This document shows positions 28,531-53,085 of a stretch of DNA of 64,000 bases, in pieces. Source of the DNA: Erigeron canadensis (lineage: Eukaryota > Streptophyta > Magnoliopsida > Asterales > Asteraceae); the NCBI RefSeq assembly GCF_010389155.1, contig NC_057768.1, forward strand, positions 25,553,966 to 25,617,965, given 5' to 3'. Position numbers and translations under genes: made by a program. Below the pieces are notes generated by a model. That model was not told the DNA's origin and searched no databases. It saw nothing but the letters and a program-made list of their open reading frames with translations. Numbering within the stretch: the first letter of the stretch is position 1; each line of letters starts with the position of its first letter.

Positions 28531-30644
28531 GACTAATGGGAATGGAGAGTCCATGGAATGCCCCTCTTCCATGGAAATTGTGACATGTGGCACTCTCCAA
28601 TCATTTGGGGCATTCCCCCCATCCCTTTGGGGTGGAGAAATGCCCTTTAAGGCATTCCCTATTTTTTTTTTTTTTTAATTTTTAGATTTATAAATAATTT
28701 AAATAAAACATACTACTTTATATTAAAAACATACTTTTATTAGAAAAAAAAAAACAAACTACTTTTTATTAAAAAAAACACACTAAAAAAATTACATAGA
28801 CACTCAAAAGAAAACTAATCGGAGTCGTCGTCGTCGGTGCTAACATACTCTCGCAGATCGACGAAGGGATCGGCTGCAGGCTCGAAGTCATGTGGTGTGT
28901 TCGCCCAAAGATGGTCAACCAAATCTGTCGTTAGCATGTTGTGGGTTTCACGGTTTTTGACGGCATGCAGATTTTGGATACGAACTTCCGTTGGAGTTAT
29001 GCGCCTCCAATAATCTGGATTGAGACTCGGTTCTTGGGCGTTGTAGTCTTGGCATACGGCCTTGTTTTCGTCCTCCAGGATCATGTTATGTAAAATGATA
29101 CAAGCATAACAAACATCCTGCATATTTCTTTTGTCCCAATATAGTGCCGGATGTTTTAGCACCTTCCATCGTTTTTTAAGCACACCGAAAGCCCGCTCAA
29201 TACCCTTTCGTGCCGACTCTTGTTTCTTCTTAAAATGTCTTCTTTTTTCATCGATCGGGTCGGAAAAGGTCTTCACAAATGTAGCATATTCGGGATAGAT
29301 GTCGTCGCCCAAATAGTATCCCTTCTCGTAGAAGTTTCCGTTTGCCCAAAACGGAGCTGCGAATAAAACATTTAGAATAAAACATTTACAAAAAAACATT
29401 TACAAGTTAAACATTTACAAGTAAAAAGTATAATAAAACACTAACCAGTGGGTGCCAATCCGTTTACAATTTCTTCAAGAATTGGCGATGATTCAAACAC
29501 ATTGATATCGTTGTGAGAACCTTGCTGTCCAAAGTACGCATTCCAAATCCATAGATCGTTTGATGCTACAGCCTGAAGGATCAAAGATGGTCTACCCACA
29601 TGCCCGCTTGTGTAAGTACCTCGCCACGCCGCCGGACACATCTCCCATGGTCAATGCATACAATCTATACTAACGATCATACCGGGAAAACCAACAACTT
29701 GTTCATTAACATCGTATATACGCGGAAGATCGGACGGATTCGGTCTCCGTAGGTATCTTGCTCCATAAATTTCCCGTATACCTTTTAATGATAAATGTTA
29801 ACTTATATATAAGTATATAACTATATAGAATTAATATTTAAAAATATCATTACCAACACAAAAATTTAGGCAAGATTCCCTTGATGTTCGCTCAGACATC
29901 TGCAAATACTCGTCAAGGAAATCACTGTTAACGCCATATGCCAATTGACGAATTGCAGATGTACACTTTTGTACCCCGACAAACCCTCTGCGCCCAGCAC
30001 GGTCATATCTCATCTGAAAATATGGGTACCTAGCCTCCAAATCACCGACTATCCGCTCAAATAAATTTTTTGACATACGAAACCTTCGTCTAAAAAGTCT
30101 GGGTGGATATCGCCGTTCTTCAGCAAAATAGTCATGCATCAAACGAGCGTGTGCTTCAATACGATCACGATCAACTGGTACCCTTCTTCTAATGACTGAG
30201 GCAGGTTGTTCGTCAATCTGTCGTCTAATTAGTTCGGCGGCTTGAAGAAGCACATTCTGTACACGCTCTTCGTAATCAGCGGACTCGTTAGAAGATCCGG
30301 ATGAATCATCGGAATCCATATGGTGATTTTTTAGGATAATGTGTGTGTATGTAATTTTTTTGAAAGGAAAATAGATAGATATGTGTGTGTATGTATATTA
30401 ATATGTGTATGTGTATGTATATATATATAGAGTGAAAAGGCTAGAAAAAAATAAAAATAAATATCTCTCAAATTTCAAGGACATCAAACGGCTATTCTCA
30501 CTAAAATCCAAACGCCCGGACGCGTTCAAAATGCAACGGGGCACGACTTTTCACTAACCGGAATGCCCCCCGGGGCTGAAGTGGGGCGTTCCCCAGGCGT
30601 TCCGCACAAATATTTTTGGTGGGAACGGGCTACTCCCAATAGTC
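28531..30644 (-). mobile_element. PIF/Harbinger element carrying only the transposase
   Basis: TSD TTA on both sides (28528-28530, 30645-30647). Ends GACTAATGGGAATGG and complement GACTATTGGGAGTAG, with GGGGCATTCC and GGCGTTCC words inside both ends. Length 2,114 bp. It holds a three-exon transposase on the minus strand and no room for the Myb-like second gene usual in autonomous PIF elements. The related element at 48.7 kb carries that partner. Confidence 0.9.
28815..30319 (-). pseudogene. PIF/Harbinger (HARBI1-like) transposase with premature stop
   Basis: Exons 30319-29854, 29781-29446 and 29356-28815 join in phase across short GT-AG introns (72 and 89 bp) to 448 codons including the final stop. 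The order fits: acidic start, helical N-terminal region with FRRRFRMSKNLFERIV, then the DDE nuclease with first Asp in SIDCMH, second in SHNDINVF and the Glu in ARKGIERAFGVLKKRW, then an acidic tail. One in-frame TGA at 29651-29653 replaces the Trp expected after DCMH, between the first and second catalytic residues, so the protein would be cut early. Otherwise the frame is whole, so inactivation looks recent. Intact, it would cut and paste elements with TTA/TAA targets. Confidence 0.85.
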
Positions 30645-36385: not shown

Positions 36386-36619
36386 GCAAAAACCCTAGTT
36401 CGAAAATAGGTGATCCAAAATCTTTCTAGGAGCTGCTCTATCAGGATTCTTCCTTCTCCAATCAAGTGAAACACTTAGGCGGACTCATCGAAGATATTAC
36501 GGGCACCCATCTAGATCGTATCTACTTTTTGTCTAGCATTTTATTTTCTTCAAACAATTGGTACATCATGTTTCTCTTCTATTTTATTCATTATTGTGAA
36601 TTGATCATGAGTGGCTAAC

Positions 36620-39155
36620 TGTGACATCCGTCAACAAAACTGGTAATTTATTATAGTCTCTAACTTACATTCCAAATTTCTTGACTAGTCAATGTGCCTA
36701 TATAGTATAACAAGCATAGAAATGTGGAGATCATTTCCAATATGGGATCTCTATTACTTGATATTCAATAGTTTAGGATTGAGATATTTGATCTTCCTAA
36801 ACGTAGATGACTATAACTATCCCCGTAATTTCTAGACTTGTAGTTGTTAGTCATATTTATTTATAGATATTGATAAATTAGTATACGCTATTTAGTGGTG
36901 AACGAAATCAATAATTATAAAAGTAATATATATTAGTATAAGTCGTAAGATGGTAATAGTAATAGTAAAATATCATATGTTTAGTAAAAAAATTTTAGTC
37001 ATATATATATTACCACAATTTAATGGTGAGCAAGGAATTTTAATTCCATTAGAATTCTTATGATACATTAAGTCTAATCATAAACTAACTAAAACACTTA
37101 TCTCCATATATATATATATATAATAAGTATACCCTAAATAATAATAAAAAAAAAAAAAAACAAAACTTCTCCTTGCTTTGCTCTGCCGTCGAACAAAGAG
37201 GGAACACCACCACCAAAACCAAATTTTTATCACACAATTGTCAAGCTTCCATCTTAAAAAAAAAGTTAGTATCGTAAGAGTGATCATCGACTTTGGTGGT
37301 AAAATTCTTAATCTCTATCTTTTATTAAATTATATATATTATGTACAATCTTTGTAATCTATTTGATGAATATATATTATGGCAAATTTATAATAATGAA
37401 TGAAAGGGTTTTTTTTTGGTTAAATCAAAAGCTTGAAGTATAAATCATATTAATGTTAAAAGTTTAAGTATTTAATGAAGTATAATAATTAATGTAATAA
37501 AAGAAATCCAATTACGAAGGCATGAAAATCATAATAACAGATTTAATTAGGTGTTGGAGAGATTTGAAAGTTTATATATAAATATTAGTTGTAGTAGTCT
37601 TTAAAACAGTAAGTTTGAGTTATTTTAGAATCTGGACAGATTCGTTTTGTTAACTTTGAAAGGTCGTATCTTGGTCATGGGAGATGGTTAAGTCACGTTT
37701 TTGGTGTCTAAAATTAAGTTCAGGAAGTCTACTTTCTGGTGGAAGCGGTTTCGTGTCAAAATATGAAGTTTAAGGTTGTCAAACGAATTTTATAACAAAA
37801 CTGCGCAAAGCTGAGTTTTCCGAACAGATTTTGGTCGACTTCAAATAGTCATATCTTGGTCGATTTTATGAACTGGACAATTATTTTTCTCCAGAAACTT
37901 TTTTGAGATGTTAAGATTGTACAGTAAAAAAATTGGATTTTTTTGAATCTTCGAAGGCCCTTAACTTTTATAAAACTTTTCTGTGTGCGAACAGTGATCT
38001 TTCTGACTAGTCTGTAATCATTGAATTTTTAAAAATAGTTAACGTGCCAAATAAATTATGTAAAATTCATGTAAGTATATAACACTCTAAGGTAACACTA
38101 GTTAAGATTTGGAATCTTGAATCATTCGTTTCATCCTAATAAAAAATAGATAAAGTTACAAAAAATTTCAGTTAATATGAACTTGTAGAATTTAATCTTA
38201 AATCAGTAAAACAAATATTATATATTAAGTTATGTGACTTGTAACTTAATAATATATGAAAAAAAAAATCATTTGTAAATATTTGAATGTAGCCATATGT
38301 GTATTTCATCAAATACGGGTTACAATGGACGGTTCTTGACCATGTCCATAATTGTAACTTGTTCATATTTATATGTTGTGTAGATTCTAGCGACCTTGTT
38401 GGATTTGCACAACTACTTGCTTGTTGAGGTGAGTTTCGTGGCCCCTTTTTATATTATTTCTTTGGGGGAAAATGATGCTCAAAACACTTTTCATTTCTTT
38501 ACTAGCTGTGTCAAAACTTGTTTGTTTTCATGGACAAATACATGTAATTATGAAATGTGTATGCTAGCTTGCTTGTATTGATTTCTTTGATGCAATAGAT
38601 GTCTTTTGATATCTATTGAAGACTATTGGAAAACTATCGACCAACTTTATACTCCAGCTGGTAGTTGTTGGTATTTAAAGCATGATTGAGTTGTTAACAG
38701 GAGTGATGGGGATTGTGTTGTTGGATAACTATGATGGCATTGATCAGTATTTAGTATGCTACTACATGTTTATATTTACGCTATTGTCCAAAACTTGATA
38801 TATCATGCACAGCAAACTCATTTGTATTCCTTTAAACCTACGAACTCACCAACATTATGTTGACATTTTCGAGCATTCATTTTCAGGTAATAACAATGCT
38901 TAAGAAGATTGAGCTTATGGACTTTAGGAAGACCAATAAAGAGATCCTTCATGGACTCCTAGATTGCATGTGAAACGTTGAACGCTATTTGCAATTATTA
39001 TTTCTTTGCTATTTGAGGCGTGCTGCCTAGATTTTCCGTTTATGAAATTTACATTTATTTGAATTTCATTTAGTATGACTCTATTATAAAGTCCATGTGC
39101 CATTGCTATATCTTTTAGTCATATCCTACGATTCCGCCTAAGGTGGGGTGTGACA
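36620..39155 (+). repeat. 5' LTR of the gypsy element
   Basis: 2,536 bp, TG...CA. An AT-rich TATA-like stretch (about 37105-37124) is followed by ACCCTAAATAAT and a run of A. Compared with the 3' LTR, the differences I could find by eye are one- or few-base length changes, mostly in A/T runs. Confidence 0.95.
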
Positions 39156-39158
39156 GAT

Positions 39159-39171
39159 TGGTATCAGAGCC
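39159..39171 (+). other. primer-binding site, initiator tRNA-Met
   Basis: TGGTATCAGAGCC begins three bases after the 5' LTR. It is complementary to the 3' end of plant initiator tRNA-Met, as in most Ty3/gypsy and copia elements. Confidence 0.93.
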
Positions 39172-39402: not shown

Positions 39403-39828
39403 ATGGCACGTACAAAGAAAACAGCCCGTAAGAGTTCCGCATGGAGGGACATAATCATCCGTCGACAACTTAAAAGGGACGCCGCAGCTAACAAGGAAAC
39501 CCCCGCTCAAGAACCATCTCAGAAGCCTAGAGTTTCCTCTGAAAGCGAACCGTCAGAAGATCCTAACTACTACTCCAAGACAGTTATAATCATCGATTCT
39601 GACAGCGAGCCGGAGGAAGAACCGGACTATGATTCTAAGGCAGACCCCGAAAGCGTTCATAAGGGAAAGACAATGGAGGCTACGATAAAGGACAACAGAA
39701 GCTATAGTCCTACTAGCTCAGTAAGCTCTCAAGAGAGCCGGATCGGACCAACACGACAACAAGCTTCTTATCCTCCCACCATTTCCTCCAACTCCCCTTA
39801 TGACGCCACTTGCACGTGGGAGGGCTAG
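39403..39828 (+). CDS. leader ORF upstream of gag with histone-H3-tail-like N-terminus
   Basis: 141 aa, ATG at 39403, between the primer site and gag. Residues 1-11 read MARTKKTARKS; histone H3 has MARTKQTARKS, so K4, R8, K9 and S10 fall in place. Then RRQL and AANKETPA recall H3 RKQL and AARKSAPA at roughly the right distance, with a 2-3 residue insertion and loss of K14, K18 and R26 context. The rest is acidic, Ser/Pro/Glu-rich and probably disordered (IIIDSDSEPEEEPDYDS). No membrane or zinc motif. The stop is 447 nt before gag, so it would need its own translation from the genomic or a spliced RNA. A gag- or host-derived origin is unknown. I cannot say whether related elements share it. 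Confidence 0.6.
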   Translation: MARTKKTARKSSAWRDIIIRRQLKRDAAANKETPAQEPSQKPRVSSESEPSEDPNYYSKTVIIIDSDSEPEEEPDYDSKADPESVHKGKTMEATIKDNRSYSPTSSVSSQESRIGPTRQQASYPPTISSNSPYDATCTWEG

Positions 39829-40275: not shown

Positions 40276-41244
40276 ATGAATAGAGGAGGAAGAAATGGAG
40301 GACGTGGAGGTAGAGGTGGTGGTCGTGGTGGAAATAATGGGGTTAATGATGGAGAAGGTGATGGTGGCAATCCGGATATTGCAAACATGATCACTCAGCA
40401 AATAGCTGCCGCTATTCCTACTATTGTTACTCAAGTGACCGCTGCTGTTCTTAATGCAAACAACAATAACCCTAATAATAATAACAATAATGAGAATAAC
40501 AATAACAACAATGAGAACAACAATAACAATAATGAGAACAATAATAACAATAATGAAAATAACAATGATGGTAATCAGAATAACAACATCATTGGAGGCA
40601 ATAATAATGGATGCACCTATAGGGAGTTTCAATATTGTAAACCACCAGATTTTGATGGCAAGGGAGGAGCATTGGCAGCCACTAGATGGATAGAGAAAAT
40701 GGAAGCTGTCATGGATATTAGCAACTGTGCAGAGAATCAAAAGGTGAAGTATGCCGCAGCTTCACTGACTAATAAAGCATTGACATGGTGGAACACTGAG
40801 ATACAAGCTAGGGGTAGAGTAGCAGCTGTGGGGATGACATGGGACGAGTTTAAGGAATTACTACTGGAAGAATTCTGTCCGAAAAATGAAATGCAAAAGT
40901 TGGAAAATGAATTTTGGAATCATTCAATGGTAGGAGCCAAACATGCCGCTTACACTGATCGGTTTTATGAGCTTGCCAAACTAGTACCTCATCTAGTTAG
41001 ACCTGAATCAAATAGGATCCAGAGGTATATCTATGGTCTTGTTCCCCAAATTCGTGGGCTTGTGTCAGCAACTGAGCCAACCACGATTCAAAGTGCTATT
41101 CAGAAAGCAGGATCTTTAACGGATGAAATGGTGAGAAATGGGTCATTGTCTAAGGTTAATGAGAAAAGGAAGGATGGTACTGAGACAAGTGGGTCAAAGA
41201 ATACTAATGGAAATAACAAGAAGGCAAAAATGGCAACGGGTTGA
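40276..41244 (+). CDS. gag: gag of the gypsy element
   Basis: 322 aa. The N-terminus is RGG-rich (residues 2-22), then comes an Asn-rich stretch with E-N6 units in tandem (about 63-102), then the retrotransposon gag (capsid) domain from about 113 ([27 protein letters not shown]) to about 270, then a basic linker. The zinc knuckles are not in this frame but at the start of the pol frame. The stop TGA at 41242-41244 overlaps an ATG at 41244. The gag protein would form the particle. In related elements gag and pol usually form one frame, so the break here looks secondary. Confidence 0.92.
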
Positions 41245-44200
41245 TGGCAACGGATGCGACTAAGATCGGATATACGGGTTCTGCTCCAAAGTGTACAAAA
41301 TGTCAATTCCATCATTTCCAAAATTCACCTTGCCGTTTGTGTACAAACTGCAACCGATTTGGACACCTTGCTAGGGACTGTCGAGTGGGAGTCAAGCAGG
41401 TGGCTCCGGTGAATGCTGTTAACCCGATAAATAACCGTGGAACGTGCTATGAGTGCGGTAGTCATAACCATTACCGCAACACGTGTCCAAATTTGAACCG
41501 AGCATGGGGTCAGAGGGGTAATAATCCAAATCAAGTACTAGCTATTGGTGGAACTCAGAATCAAGGAAATAATCAGGGACAAAGAGCTAACAATCAGAAT
41601 CAAGTGGTAGCTAATGGAGGGAATCGGAATCAAGGGAATAATGCCAACCAAGCCCGTGGTAGAGCTTTTGTCATGGTAGCAAATGAAGCTCGTCAAGATC
41701 CAAATATTGTGACGGGTACGTTTTCCTTAAACAATCACCTTGCTACAGTATTATTCGACTCTGGTGCTGAGTACAGTTTTGTTTCTATTAAGTTCATGCC
41801 ACTCCTAGATAGAGAACCCATAATATTGAATACTTATTTCTTGGTTGAGGTAGCTAATGGAAAATTTGATAGAGTTGATAGAATCGTTAATGATTGTACC
41901 TTAGAAATAGAAGGTCATTTGTTTAGTGTTAACCTTCTGCCTTTCTCGTTAAGGAGTTTTGACGTAGTTATTGGTATGGATTGGCTATCGAAGCATAGAG
42001 CCGAGATAATTTGCTATGAGAAGGTGGTCCGTATACCGCTAGGAAATAGTGAAATGCTACTCATATACGGGGAGCGGGTGGAGGAAAATCAGAAGCACCT
42101 CATGGGCATTCAGGCTAACGAGAAGAAACTCGAAAATATTCCTATCGTACGGGTTTTTCCACAAGTTTTTCCCGAAGATCTAACAGGATTACCTCCTGTA
42201 AGACAAGTTGAATTCCGTATAGATCTTATTCCGGGAGCGACGCCAGTCGCCAAAGCTCCATACCGTTTAGCACCTACCGAAATGCAAGAACTGTCTAATC
42301 AACTCCAAGAGCTCCAAGAAAAAGGCTTCATCAGACCTAGTCATTCGCCTTGGGGAGCACCAGTATTGTTTGTCAAGAAGAAAGATGGTTCGTTTCGTAT
42401 GTGCATCGATTACCGGGAGTTGAACAAACTGACAGTTAAGAATCGTTACCCTCTTCCTAGAATCGACGACTTATTCGATCAACTTCAAGGTGCGAAGTTC
42501 TTCTCGAAAATAGACCTTCGGTCCGGATATCATCAACTCAGAGTTAATGAAGCAGATATTCCAAAAACAGCATTCAGGACTCGATATGGACATTTTGAGT
42601 TCTTAGTCATGCCTTTCGGTTTGACTAATGCACCCGCAGTTTTCATGGATTTGATGAACCGTGTATGCAAACCCTATCTCGATAAGTTTGTTATTGTATT
42701 CATTGATGACATTTTAATCTATTCGAAGTCTAAGGAAGAACATGAATCTCACTTGAAAATGATTCTTGAACTACTTTGGAAAGAGAGATTGTTTGCTAAG
42801 TTTTCGAAGTGCGACTTTTGGTTACAAGAAGTTCATTTCCTTGGGCATGTAGTGAATAGTGAAGGAATCCATGTTGACCCCAGTAAGATCGAAGCAGTAA
42901 AAGATTGGAAGACTCCTACGACGCCATCAGAGGTTCGTTCATTTCTAGGCTTGGCCGGGTATTATCGACGATTCATCGCTAACTTCTCGAAAATCGCTCA
43001 ACCACTTACTCAGTTAACCCAAAAGGATAAGAAGTTTGATTGGGGAGATAAGCAAGAAAAGGCATTCCAAACACTGAAAGAAAATCTATGTAACGCTCCT
43101 ATTCTTACCCTCCCCGATGGTCCGGACGATTTTGTAGTTTATTGTGATGCTTCAAATCAAGGCTTGGGATGTGTACTAATGCAAAGGGGTAAAGTGATTG
43201 CTTATGCCTCTCGGCAACTCAAAATCCATGAGAAAAACTACACCACCCATGACTTGGAGCTTGGTGCAGTGGTTTTTGCACTCAAATGTTGGAGGCACTA
43301 TCTCTATGGGACGAAAAGTGTGATCTACACCGATCACAAGAGTCTCCAACATATTTTCGATCAAAAAGAGTTGAATATGCGACAGAGGCGGTGGATTGAA
43401 TTATTTAGTGACTATGATTGTGAGATTCGTTACCATCCGGGTAAGGCGAATGTTGTGGCTGACGCGTTAAGTAGGAAAGAAAGAATTAAGTCAAAGCAAG
43501 TACGAGCATTGATCATGACAATTCATTCGGATATAAAATCAATGATAAGTCGGGCTCAAGATGAAGCATTGCAGAATATCAATGTAGAAAAAGAAGGGTT
43601 ACGTGACCTTGATCAGCAAATGGAGCGTAAAGAGGATGGAGTACTGTACTTTGTAGGACGAATATGGATTCCACTTGCAGGTGGATTAAGAACAGTGATT
43701 TTGGACGAGGCACATAGTACGAGATACTCCGTACACCCGGGAGCTGATAAAATGTATCACGACCTTAAGGATTTGTATTGGTGGCCGAGAATGAAAAGAG
43801 ATATAGCCAGTTATGTCAGTGGATGCTTAACATGTCTAAAAGTCAAAGCTGAACATAATAAACCACCGGGTTTATTAGTGCAACCACAACTTCCCGAATG
43901 GAAATGGGAAAGAATAACCATGGATTTTATTACAAAGCTGCCAAGAACTAGTAGTGGGCATGACAAGATTTGGGTGATAGTAGATAGATTGACAAAGTCT
44001 GCGCACTTTATAGCTATCCGTGAGAGCTACACAATGGAGCAGTTAGCAAGGATTTATATAAAGGAGATAGTGGCAAAGCATGGAATTCCGGTGTCTATTA
44101 TATCTGATCGTGATAGTCATTTCACATCACGATTTTGGCAGTCATTGCAAAAGGCATTGGGAACACGTTTAGACCTGAGTACGGCTTACCATCCTCAAAC

Positions 44201-45014
44201 CGATGGCCAAAGTGAGCGTACTATTCAGACTTTGGAAGATATGCTTAGGGCGTGTGTGATGGACTTTGGGGGAAGCTGGGATATTCACCTTCCTCTAGTT
44301 GAGTTCTCGTACAATAATAGTTATCATTCAAGTATTAAGTGTGCTCCATTTGAAGCTTTATATGGGCGGAAATGTCGCTCACCTGTCGTTTGGGCTGAGA
44401 TTGGAGAAAGTCAGTTGATTGGCCCGGAGATTGTACAAGAGACAACAGATAGGATTTTTCAAATCAAAGAAAGACTGAAAGCAGCTAGAGACCGCCAAAA
44501 GAGCTACGCCGACAAACGGCGAAGGCCTTTAGAATTCTATGTTGGTGATAAAGTGTTACTTAAAGTGTCGCCTTGGAAGGGCATGGTTCGATTTGGAAAG
44601 AAAGGAAAGTTGGCACCAAGGTACGTTGGACCGTTTGAAATTGTTGAACGGATTGGTCCGGTAGCTTATCGTTTAAGACTACCTCAAGAACTAAGTAGGA
44701 TACATGATACATTCCACGTGTCAAATCTCAAGAAGTGTCTCGCGGATACAAGTTTGCATGTACCGCTAGACGACATTAAGATTGATGACAAGTTACATTT
44801 TGTGGAAGAACCAGTTGAGATCATGGATCGAGAACTTAAGACATTAAAACGTAGTAAAATTCCAATTGTCAAGGTCCGGTGGAATTCAAAGCGAGGGCCA
44901 GAGTTTACTTGGGAGCGAGAGGATCAAATGAAAATCAAATATCCACATCTATTTAATGCTACGACTTCCAACCGTAATTCCAACAAAATTTCGAGACGAA
45001 ATTTTCTCAAGTAG
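41244..45014 (+). CDS. pol: pol polyprotein of the gypsy element (zinc knuckles, PR, RT, RNase H, IN, chromodomain-like)
   Basis: 1,256 aa from ATG 41244, intact. Two CCHC knuckles ([28 protein letters not shown]) lie near residues 33-81; they belong to the gag C-terminus in function. Protease FDSGA has Asp at about 172. RT has [11 protein letters not shown] and FIDD with Asp at 488-489. RNase H has YCDASNQ at about 635 and TDHKSLQH. The integrase has HHCC zinc finger residues from about 831, then D894, D955 and E991 with 35-residue spacing. The C-terminus (FHVSNLKKC..., then [14 protein letters not shown]) is a chromodomain-like end of the Tekay type, which targets integration to heterochromatin in the family. 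All catalytic residues I checked are present. Confidence 0.93.
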
Positions 45015-45021
45015 GGGAGAC
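45011..45021 (+). other. polypurine tract of the gypsy element
   Basis: GTAGGGGAGAC lies directly before the 3' LTR and overlaps the pol stop. Plus-strand DNA synthesis would start here. Confidence 0.8.
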
Positions 45022-47560
45022 TGTGACATCCGTCAACAAAACTGGTAATTTATTATAGTCTCTAACTTACATTCCAAATTTCTTGACTAGTCAATGTGCC
45101 TATATAGTATAACAAGCATAGAAATGTGGAGATCATTTCCAATATGGGATCTCTATTACTTGATATTCAATAGTTTAGGATTGAGATATTTGATCTTCCT
45201 AAACGTAGATGACTATAACTATCCCCGTAATTTCTAGACTTGTAGTTGTTAGTCATATTTATTTATAGATATTGATAAATTAGTATACGCTATTTAGTGG
45301 TGAACGAAATCAATAATTATAAAAGTAATATATAATTAGTATAAGTCGTAAGATGGTAATAGTAATAGTAAAATATCATATGTTTAGTAAAAAAATTTTA
45401 GTCATATATATATTACCACAATTTAATGGTGAGCAAGGAATTTTAATTCCATTAGAATTCTTATGATACATTAAGTCTAATCATAAACTAACTAAAACAC
45501 TTATCTCCATATATATATATATATAATAAGTATACCCTAAATAATAATAAAAAAAAAAAAACAAAACTTCTCCTTGCTTTGCTCTGCCGTCGAACAAAGA
45601 GGGAACACCACCACCAAAACCAAATTTTTATCACACAATTGTCAAGCTTCCATCTTAAAAAAAAAGTTAGTATCGTAAGAGTGATCATCGACTTTGGTGG
45701 TAAAATTCTTAATCTCTATCTTTTATTAAATTATATATATTTATGTACAATCTTTGTAATCTATTTGATGAATATATATTATGGCAAATTTATAATAATG
45801 AATGAAAGGGTTTTTTTTTGGTTAAATCAAAAGCTTGAAGTATAAATCATATTAATGTTAAAAGTTTAAAGTATTTAATGAAGTATAATAATTAATGTAA
45901 TAAAAGAAATCCAATTACGAAGGCATGAAAATCATAATAACAGATTTAATTAGGTGTTGGAGAGATTTGAAAGTTTATATATAATATTAGTTGTAGTAGT
46001 CTTTAAAACAGTAAGTTTGAGTTATTTTAGAATCTGGACAGATTCGTTTTGTTAACTTTGAAAGGTCGTATCTTGGTCATGGGAGATGGTTAAGTCACGT
46101 TTTTGGTGTCTAAAATTAAGTTCAGGAAGTCTACTTTCTGGTGGAAGCGGTTTCGTGTCAAAATATGAAGTTTAAGGTTGTCAAACGAATTTTATAACAA
46201 AACTGCGCAAAGCTGAGTTTTCCGAACAGATTTTGGTCGACTTCAAATAGTCATATCTTGGTCGATTTTATGAACTGGACAATTATTTTTCTCCAGAAAC
46301 TTTTTTGAGATGTTAAGATTGTACAGTAAAAAAATTGGATTTTTTTGAATCTTCGAAGGCCCTTAACTTTTATAAAACTTTTCTGTGTGCGAACAGTGAT
46401 CTTTCTGACTAGTCTGTAATCATTGAATTTTTAAAAATAGTTAACGTGCCAAATAAATTATGTAAAAATTCATGTAAGTATATAACACTCTAAGGTAACA
46501 CTAGTTAAGATTTGGAATCTTGAATCATTCGTTTCATCCTAATAAAAAATAGATAAAGTTACAAAAAATTTCAGTTAATATGAACTTGTAGAATTTAATC
46601 TTAAATCAGTAAAACAAATATTATATATTAAGTTATGTGACTTGTAACTTAATAATATATGAAAAAAAAAAATCATTTGTAAATATTTTGAATGTAGCCA
46701 TATGTGTATTTCATCAAATACGGGTTACAATGGACGGTTCTTGACCATGTCCATAATTGTAACTTGTTCATATTTATATGTTGTGTAGATTCTAGCGACC
46801 TTGTTGGATTTGCACAACTACTTGCTTGTTGAGGTGAGTTTCGTGGCCCCTTTTTATATTATTTCTTTGGGGGAAAATGATGCTCAAAACACTTTTCATT
46901 TCTTTACTAGCTGTGTCAAAACTTGTTTGTTTTCATGGACAAATACATGTAATTATGAAATGTGTATGCTAGCTTGCTTGTATTGATTTCTTTGATGCAA
47001 TAGATGTCTTTTGATATCTATTGAAGACTATTGGAAAACTATCGACCAACTTTATACTCCAGCTGGTAGTTGTTGGTATTTAAAGCATGATTGAGTTGTT
47101 AACAGGAGTGATGGGGATTGTGTTGTTGGATAACTATGATGGCATTGATCAGTATTTAGTATGCTACTACATGTTTATATTTACGCTATTGTCCAAAACT
47201 TGATATATCATGCACAGCAAACTCATTTGTATTCCTTTAAACCTACGAACTCACCAACATTATGTTGACATTTTCGAGCATTCATTTTCAGGTAATAACA
47301 ATGCTTAAGAAGATTGAGCTTATGGACTTTAGGAAGACCAATAAAGAGATCCTTCATGGACTCCTAGATTGCATGTGAAACGTTGAACGCTATTTGCAAT
47401 TATTATTTCTTTGCTATTTGAGGCGTGCTGCCTAGATTTTCCGTTTATGAAATTTACATTTATTTGAATTTCATTTAGTATGACTCTATTATAAAGTCCA
47501 TGTGCCATTGCTATATCTTTTAGTCATATCCTACGATTCCGCCTAAGGTGGGGTGTGACA
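45022..47560 (+). repeat. 3' LTR of the gypsy element
   Basis: 2,539 bp, same ends as the 5' LTR. Length differences of one to a few bases appear, for example at ATATA(A)TTAG, TATAT(T)TATG, GTTTAA(A)GTA and the long A run. No base substitution was noticed on reading. Confidence 0.95.
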
Positions 47561-47714
47561 CTAACTGTTTAATCATCTACCTTGATGAAACTAGACGGAT
47601 AATGTGATTGCAACACTTTTAATTCAAAAGGGTTTATTTAATTATCGTTGTTCTGTGATCTTGATGATATTAATACTTTTCATTAATTAATTTCGATATT
47701 GGTTGCATATGATT

Positions 47715-52112: not shown

Positions 52113-52370
52113 GATTAATTACGGGAAGACCAATGTATTTTTTCTCATTTGTACACGGTTGCCCATTATACTTTTTTATTGATGAGGTTTGCCCACATAC
52201 TTTTCTTTTTTGTACACGGTTGACCAATATTACCGACTATCACAGGTAAACCGGTCAACTTTGGGTCAACCGTGTACAAAAAAAAATATGTGGGTAAACC
52301 TCATCAATAAAAAGTATGATGGGCAACCGTGTACAAATGGAAAAGTACGTTGGTCTTTTCGTGATTAATC
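52113..52370. mobile_element. 258-bp foldback MITE, copy 1
   Basis: Near-complete palindrome. GATTAATTACGGGAAGACC at the left pairs with GGTCTTTTCGTGATTAATC at the right. Inner words GTACACGGTTGCCCAT, TTTGCCCACATAC and ACCGACTATCACAGG form the arms and a 50-bp asymmetric centre. Confidence 0.8.
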
Positions 52371-52827: not shown

Positions 52828-53085
52828 GATTAATCACGAGAAGACCGACGTACTTTCCCATTTTTACACGGTTGCCCATTATACTTTTTTTTTTTGATAA
52901 GGTTTACCCAGATACTTTTCTTTTTGTACACAGTTGACCCAAAGTTGACCGGTTTACCTGTGATAGTCGGTAATATTGGTCAACCGTGTACAAAAAAAGG
53001 TATGTGAGTAAACCTCATCAATAAAAAAGTATAATGGGCAACCGTGTACAAATGGGAAAGTACGTTGGTCTTCCCGTGATTAATC
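52828..53085. mobile_element. 258-bp foldback MITE, copy 2
   Basis: Same family and exact same length as 52113-52370. Its asymmetric centre (GTTGACCGGTTTACCTGTGATAGTC) is the reverse complement of that in copy 1, so the two are in opposite orientation 457 bp apart. Confidence 0.8.

Follow-up and report, generated by a model that had tools for sequence, protein, structure and literature searches.

A candidate histone H3 tip mimic at the start of the leader ORF of a probable Tekay-like chromovirus in Erigeron canadensis

Chromoviruses are known to carry additional ORFs 5' of gag whose function is unknown (PMC11728184, PMC3485330, PMC7264820, PMC6317226). Those described for Tekay/Del elements (ORF0 or eORF-5'F; sunflower Tekay group 2 and rice Retrosat2, RIRE3, and RIRE8) lie between the LTR and gag on the sense strand, and the extra ORF of Retrosat2 is described as diverging in sequence faster than gag-pol (PMC11728184, PMC3485330, PMC6317226). 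The sunflower Tekay ORF is present in most copies and encodes a 402-aa protein with long disordered stretches and a basic signal, and the sunflower authors found no amino-acid similarity between this ORF and those of grasses (PMC11728184). The available text of these sources mentions no histone-like start for any of the Tekay/Del 5' ORFs. The ORF described here shares the position, the strand, the divergence faster than that of gag-pol, the presence in most copies, the long, probably disordered stretches, and the basic signal, and is much shorter, at 141 aa; it also falls below the 250 codons or more that were counted, according to the text available, in a 2019 eORF survey.

Both viral and host proteins are known to include histone mimics; the automethylation site of G9a and the C-terminus of influenza NS1 are both said to mimic H3. 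In these proteins, as in the ORF described here, a short H3-tail-like peptide occurs in a non-histone protein. Unlike them, the ORF carries the peptide at its very N-terminus, where A1 could be free, spans H3(1-10) including both K4 and K9, and is borne by a retrotransposon. Several transposon proteins counter host silencing, specifically VANC6, VANC21, TnpA, and MURA; they come from DNA transposons, VANC binds elements of its own family, and the available portion of the source makes no mention of an H3-like tail (PMC10706983). A comparable anti-silencing role for the ORF is purely hypothetical. Plant CENH3 N-termini (MARTKH...) have MARTK in common with the ORF, but the poplar CENH3 peptide, as given in the available text, lacks QTARKS (PMC11288735), and the ORF has no histone fold match.

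The window analyzed here is 64,000 nt of the Erigeron canadensis genome (GCF_010389155.1, NC_057768.1:25,553,966-25,617,965, forward strand). It contains a Ty3/gypsy LTR retrotransposon with two LTRs, a target-site duplication, a primer-binding site, gag, and a pol ordered PR-RT-RH-INT. The flanking duplications, CTAAC, are identical (36615-36619 and 47561-47565). Within them, and all on the plus strand, lie the 5' LTR (36620-39155, TGTGACATC...GTGTGACA) and the 3' LTR (45022-47560), defined by alignment to each other. Because the LTR pair has no mismatch (8 gap openings over 2544 alignment columns, two flanking bases included), we consider the insertion recent. The sequence of the primer-binding site (39159-39170) is TGGTATCAGAGC, presumably complementary to the 3' end of initiator tRNA-Met. 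The gag gene (40276-41244) encodes a Ty3 capsid (PF19259, 4.8e-16; PF03732, 2.9e-13), and domain search placed zinc knuckles, protease, reverse transcriptase (RT), RNase H, integrase, and a C-terminal chromodomain region in pol (41241-45014). The chromodomain region (44796-44954), of plant chromovirus type and ending in HLF, was identified by a PF00385 match below the Pfam cut-off (E 0.083) and by alignment to related pol proteins. A polypurine-like tract, AAGTAGGGGAGAC (45009-45021), lies 5' of the 3' LTR. The RT piece of pol matched at least 7998 proteins (all 7998 candidates scored), and the 120 matches listed bear plant names where they are named. From its sequence we classify the element as a probable Tekay-like chromovirus, the Tekay label deriving from the first-pass annotation and from general resemblance rather than from named clade references.

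Elsewhere in the window are two minus-strand ORFs (28815-29399 and 29831-30319) that to our eye resemble pieces of a Harbinger-type transposase. A pair of 81-nt inverted repeats (52206-52286 and 52917-52997), 98% complementary and 630 nt apart, is perhaps a small inverted-repeat element.

Between the primer-binding site and gag is the leader ORF (39403-39828, plus strand), whose coordinates and sequence the first-pass annotation had given exactly. It starts 248 nt past the end of the 5' LTR with G at both -3 and +4 of its AUG, and five short AUG-initiated frames lie upstream, between the LTR end and the ORF. The ORF is in the same frame as gag but is separated from it by several in-frame stops. 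Its sequence, its copies, and its indel pattern indicate a 5' additional ORF: it is in sense orientation, lies between LTR and gag, encodes no canonical domain, and is open in most copies. A Pfam search with its protein returned no family above its cut-off and no histone match at E <= 1; BLM_N (E 6.6e-4) and two weaker matches fell below the cut-offs and were taken as compositional.

The N-terminus of the ORF protein is MARTKKTARKSSAWRD. As the first-pass annotation had pointed out, the start MARTKKTARKS matches 10 of the 11 residues of Met plus H3(1-10), a direct primary-sequence match to the H3 tail whose single difference is K in place of Q5. We estimated the chance of at least nine matches to H3(1-10) in ten residues after a start Met as 6e-11 with the composition of gag/pol, 9e-10 with that of the whole ORF, and 2e-8 with that of its first 45 residues, against a background of about 1.3e7 ATGs on both strands. 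A degenerate codon pattern for the tail, which at position 5 admitted codons for K, Q, or E and was blind to any other residue, had 47 sites in the 426-Mb genome, versus 0 for the reversed control. Seventeen of these sites start histone H3 sequences (genes, first exons, and broken copies), and the remaining 30 belong to the element family of the ORF, 11 of them falling at loci also recovered by the six-frame search described below. The control comparison and the composition estimates exclude a chance origin of the H3-like start.

The first-pass annotation had extended the resemblance to RRQL and AANKETPA farther along the protein. Both are literally present in the window ORF, but the likeness is weak and relatives do not keep it: residues 12-45 scored equally well or better against H3 in 50 of 5000 shuffles for the window ORF and in 2648 of 5000 for its outside homolog P0122 (described below). 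Because this resemblance is weak and absent from older copies, we confine the H3-like unit to residues 1-11 and reject wider H3 homology. Also rejected was an H3 protein or histone-fold fusion, as there is no histone fold match and no H3 similarity is kept past residue 11.

A six-frame search of the genome with the ORF found at least 57 matching stretches, 25 of them full length. The first-pass annotation had named disruption of most sister copies, absence of the H3-like segment from relatives, and a chance origin as grounds for abandoning its interpretation; 22 of the 25 full-length copies have no internal stop, and the segment, which is not a product of chance, occurs in relatives both old and young. 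MARTKKTARKS is exact in 29 of 37 element start regions. The eight deviating starts comprise a deletion (L024), single-copy changes in L013 and L021, and five old diverged copies: L032 (MTRTKKTACKS), L035 (MARTKQTTRKS), L036a (MARIKQTACKS), L038a (MARTKQTSRKI), and L038b (MARTTQTTHKS). Across the 36 regions other than L024, R2, T6, and K9 never vary; A1, T3, K4, and S10 are each kept in 35. Lysine occupies position 5 in 32 regions, and the Q of H3 in the other 4. A7 and R8 are kept in 32 each, so that a non-H3 residue at either site is as frequent as Q at position 5; several of the frames concerned are open there, and decay can only be assumed. Two of the old loci are palindromic. L038:3112-5572 consists of an LTR end and leader ORF opposite an inverted second copy (a 2.5-kb palindrome, 80% identity), and L036:2969-4154 of two inverted 426-nt arms (92% identity). 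No gag or pol match was found at either locus. Transcripts of these palindromes could fold as long hairpins, a possible source of small RNA against the family.

Relative to the window copy, codons 1-11 have no differences at 33 nt in L025, L034, L031, and L033, two in L032 and L035, and three, five, and seven in L036a, L038a, and L038b, respectively; codons 12-22 differ at 7-18 of 33 nt in all nine of these diverged copies. The tail is thus identical in four of the nine, synonymous sites included. On a parsimony tree built without codons 1-22, codons 1-11 required 0.45 steps per site, codons 12-22 1.67, codons 23-80 0.79-1.00, and the leader 0.59-0.69. Within codons 1-80, only 4 of 208 33-nt segments are as conserved as the tail, specifically the tail's own two and two others with starts at nt 201 and nt 204. 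When the comparison was extended to the full ORF in 11 copies, as few steps as in the tail were counted in 19 of 391 segments, the tail's own two included; 13 of the 19 belong to the C-terminal end. In these 11 copies, which are alignable throughout, steps per site come to 0.45 for the last 60 nt and 0.39 for the first 33 nt; L031 and L036a were left out of this comparison because their 3' parts are rearranged. Within the ORF protein, conservation is thus concentrated at the two termini, codons 1-11 and the C-terminal end. The non-coding leader from the primer-binding site to the ATG is conserved about as well, with 29 of 192 leader segments equal to or exceeding the tail, and changes within codons 1-11 fall 8/4/3 at codon positions 1/2/3, which is not the pattern expected from protein-level constraint.

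Immediately downstream, codons 12-22 (39436-39468) have 20/25/10 steps at codon positions 1/2/3, avoiding the third position. This pattern may indicate diversifying selection adjoining the conserved tail.

Purifying selection acting across the entire ORF, which the first-pass annotation had put forward for testing, was not detectable in 23 young copies (L001-L023). These have 27 nonsynonymous variants, one of them a stop, and 3 synonymous ones, versus 18 and 17 in gag codons 111-322 of the same copies (Fisher P = 0.001); 3 synonymous of 30 compares with a neutral expectation of 22-25% (P 0.04-0.08). Among diverged copies, the main gag capsid pieces of L032, L033, and L035 are 87-92% identical to that of the window element, and their ORFs 46-49% over gapped alignments; for L034 the values are 93% for gag and 82-85% for the ORF. 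Indels in the ORF relative to the window copy are of 3, 36, 15, and 120 nt in both L033 and L035, of 9, 12, 147, and 2 nt in L038a, of 9, 12, 129, 2, and 1 nt in L038b, of 15, 1, and 139 nt in L032, and of 1 nt in L034; L022, L023, L025, and L026 have none. Non-coding indels are of 1, 2, or 8 nt in the leader and include 14, 34, 28, and 10 nt past the stop. Nearly all large indels in the ORF are multiples of three, and the odd ones occur in copies that also bear stops or breaks. Because of this preference for multiples of three, we read the frame as having been kept during transposition, with decay later.

Outside this genome, a first protein-database search with the window ORF alone found no homolog. 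A third search, with the window ORF and the open pieces of four loci, gave a single match among 2384 candidates, P0122, a 134-aa protein from a 1438-base contig (ENA source; database E 0.01, pairwise E 1e-13, 38% identical). It starts MARTKFTARKSC and ends SYPPVIYSESPYDATCVWE. Identity to the window ORF is 10/11 in residues 1-11, 30/110 (27%) in residues 12-121, and 15/19 in residues 122-140. P0122 therefore keeps both MARTKxTARKS and the C-terminal motif, and within H3(1-10) it departs from the window copy only at the Q5 position, where it has F, a residue outside the degenerate codon pattern used on the genome. DAESEYRPMN, missing from the window copy, is common to P0122, L032, and L035, and L033 has DVESEYRPMN. 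We treat P0122 as one suggestive data point, because seeding by exact 5-residue words favors tail-bearing relatives. As the database does contain plant proteins, the scarcity of homologs may partly reflect masking or missing annotation. A scan of viral contigs with P0122 gave one match, L071, confined to residues 50-84 in the acidic stretch, and two tail patterns searched against the viral contigs had 0 matches.

The ORF protein can be divided into four parts, all encoded on the plus strand. Codons 1-11 (39403-39435), delimited by the pattern search and copy comparisons, form the H3(1-10)-like tail. Codons 12-30 (39436-39492) evolve fast in the copy comparison and are a predicted helix (block pLDDT 80-82). 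Codons 31-121 (39493-39765), judged by indels, composition, and structure prediction, are an acidic linker of low confidence, probably disordered, with lineage-specific indels. Codons 122-141 (39766-39825) hold the conserved C-terminal motif SYPPxIxSxSPYDATCxWE(G), seen in the copies and in P0122, for which structure prediction suggests a possible beta-hairpin. The predicted structure of the whole protein has a pTM of 0.19. Within the linker, residues 60-69 (39580-39609) are TVIIIDSDSE, which we take to resemble a SUMO-interacting motif; it seems derived within younger lineages, because L033, L035, and L038 have another, longer sequence there.

Considering these features together, we tentatively favor, at slightly less than an even chance, the reading that the ORF is a genuine coding extra gene of a Tekay-like chromovirus and that residues 1-11 are a kept mimic of the H3 tip. 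Such a function is plausible because the H3-like start is non-chance, is present in young and old copies alike, stops abruptly at codon 12, and is retained by the far-diverged P0122. Weighing against this reading are the comparable conservation of the non-coding leader, the C-terminal segments as conserved as the tail, the codon-position pattern of changes in codons 1-11, the changes at A7 and R8, the lack of detectable purifying selection in young copies, the ORF indels of L032 (1 and 139 nt), L034 (1 nt), and L038b (2 and 1 nt), and the five upstream AUGs. Of the interpretation offered by the first-pass annotation, the non-chance and retained H3-like N-terminus thus stands, and the wider H3 resemblance and whole-ORF purifying selection do not. 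Met1 is removed from N-termini of this kind as a general rule, and its removal here would expose a free A-R-T-K-x-T-A-R-K-S end. Host readers and writers of H3(1-10) could bind this end, the acidic variable middle may serve as a linker, and the conserved C-terminal motif may bind another partner, such as the element's Gag or integrase or some other complex. The protein looks like an adaptor, because its two conserved ends are linked by a basic segment predicted to be helical and by an acidic, variable, probably disordered stretch.

The likeliest targets would be silencing factors that need K4me0 together with K9 (readers like AGDP1/ADCP1 or SHH1) or K9 methyltransferases, and the element may recruit, occupy, or locally misdirect them. 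AGDP1/ADCP1 is reported to be needed in transposon silencing (PMC7218100). In the AGDP1-H3 complex, as described in the available text, A1, R2, K4me0, A7, R8, and K9me2 are contacted, T3, Q5, T6, and S10 have no specific contacts, and T3 and T6 stabilize the bound conformation (PMC6208443). It is at the uncontacted position 5 that the window copy and P0122 diverge. Retention of T3, T6, and S10 is unexplained by AGDP1, save for the conformational role of T3 and T6, and the changes at A7 and R8 in several of the old copies do not speak for this reader. The minimal site of G9a is reported as TARKS, with R8 essential (PMC8541646), and TARKS is kept in the window ORF. The first-pass annotation had proposed that host H3K4 and H3K9 enzymes could methylate the peptide, which they may do, and had also raised titration of silencing readers. 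Bulk titration is implausible, because nucleosomal H3 must greatly exceed the ORF protein; local recruitment by an adaptor, or a role as enzyme substrate, seems better than occupation of readers by mass action. That a retrotransposon adaptor with a decoy H3 tip, K4 and K9 in register, captures AGDP1/ADCP1- or SHH1-type readers or writers and so shields or redirects the element is a more specific proposal, and a doubtful one.

Chief among the alternatives is a leader signal at the nucleotide level, in which the 33 nt act in cis (as start-codon context, or as a packaging or dimerization signal) and the H3 likeness is incidental. The comparable conservation of the leader between primer-binding site and ATG, the match of the four identical copies at synonymous sites too, and the 8/4/3 codon-position pattern are all consistent with this. 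However, a cis-acting element accounts neither for 9/10 identity to H3(1-10) nor for conservation that ends where the H3 match ends, and P0122 retains the tail residues despite its 27%-identical middle; we regard this explanation as unlikely. Slightly less likely again, in our judgment, is a basic N-terminal signal for nuclear localization or RNA binding with a fortuitous resemblance to H3. There is little reason for a generic signal to retain T3, T6, and S10, in the order of H3, at the exact N-terminus, although the first 30 residues of the window ORF (P0001) and of P0122 have 10 K/R versus 1-2 D/E, and a predicted NLS in the sunflower Tekay 5' ORF protein and predicted nuclear localization of the grass ones have been reported, according to the text available (PMC11728184).

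The tail could also be a functionless relic of the captured 5' coding end of a histone H3 gene, given that the identity begins at the ATG and that five of eight comparable synonymous codon choices equal those of the nearest of 17 host H3 sequences. Agreement at five of eight is, however, as expected from unrelated codon choice (P = 0.56), homology is absent beyond codon 11, and a functionless tail should decay at the rate of codons 12-22, which makes such an origin improbable. Least probable, and very much so, is the proposal of the first-pass annotation that the peptide is bound by the chromodomain of the element itself; such binding, by the integrase domain to the methylated tail, might for instance tether integration complexes. 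The element does bear a chromodomain-type C-terminus, and the C-terminus of pol gave 66 alignments among 120 related pol proteins, but the PF00385 match is below cut-off and the domain is of the plant group II type. Group II chromodomains of plant elements are reported, in the text available, to have no Y24 and in most cases no Y48, and no factor interacting with them was identified (PMC3350952). Because this plant type is described as having no aromatic residue at the first cage position and usually none at the third, the element's own domain is an unlikely partner; in the window only the cage Trp is clearly kept, the third position is non-aromatic, and the first reads as Phe only when the alignment admits an insertion of two residues.

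Among the open-access papers listed, judged by titles and abstracts, our literature search turned up none that describes a retrotransposon ORF starting like H3. A paper on carrot LTR elements (PMC9324142) mentions neither Tekay nor histone in the text available. Overall, a kept H3 tip suggests a concrete and testable function for one 5' extra ORF of a plant LTR element. If host readers or writers of H3 do bind this tip, histone mimicry would have arisen in transposons as a counter to the apparatus by which they are silenced, and the contrast between kept and free tail positions would reveal which reader imposes the selection. The leader ORF would then be a transposon-borne counterpart to viral histone mimicry.
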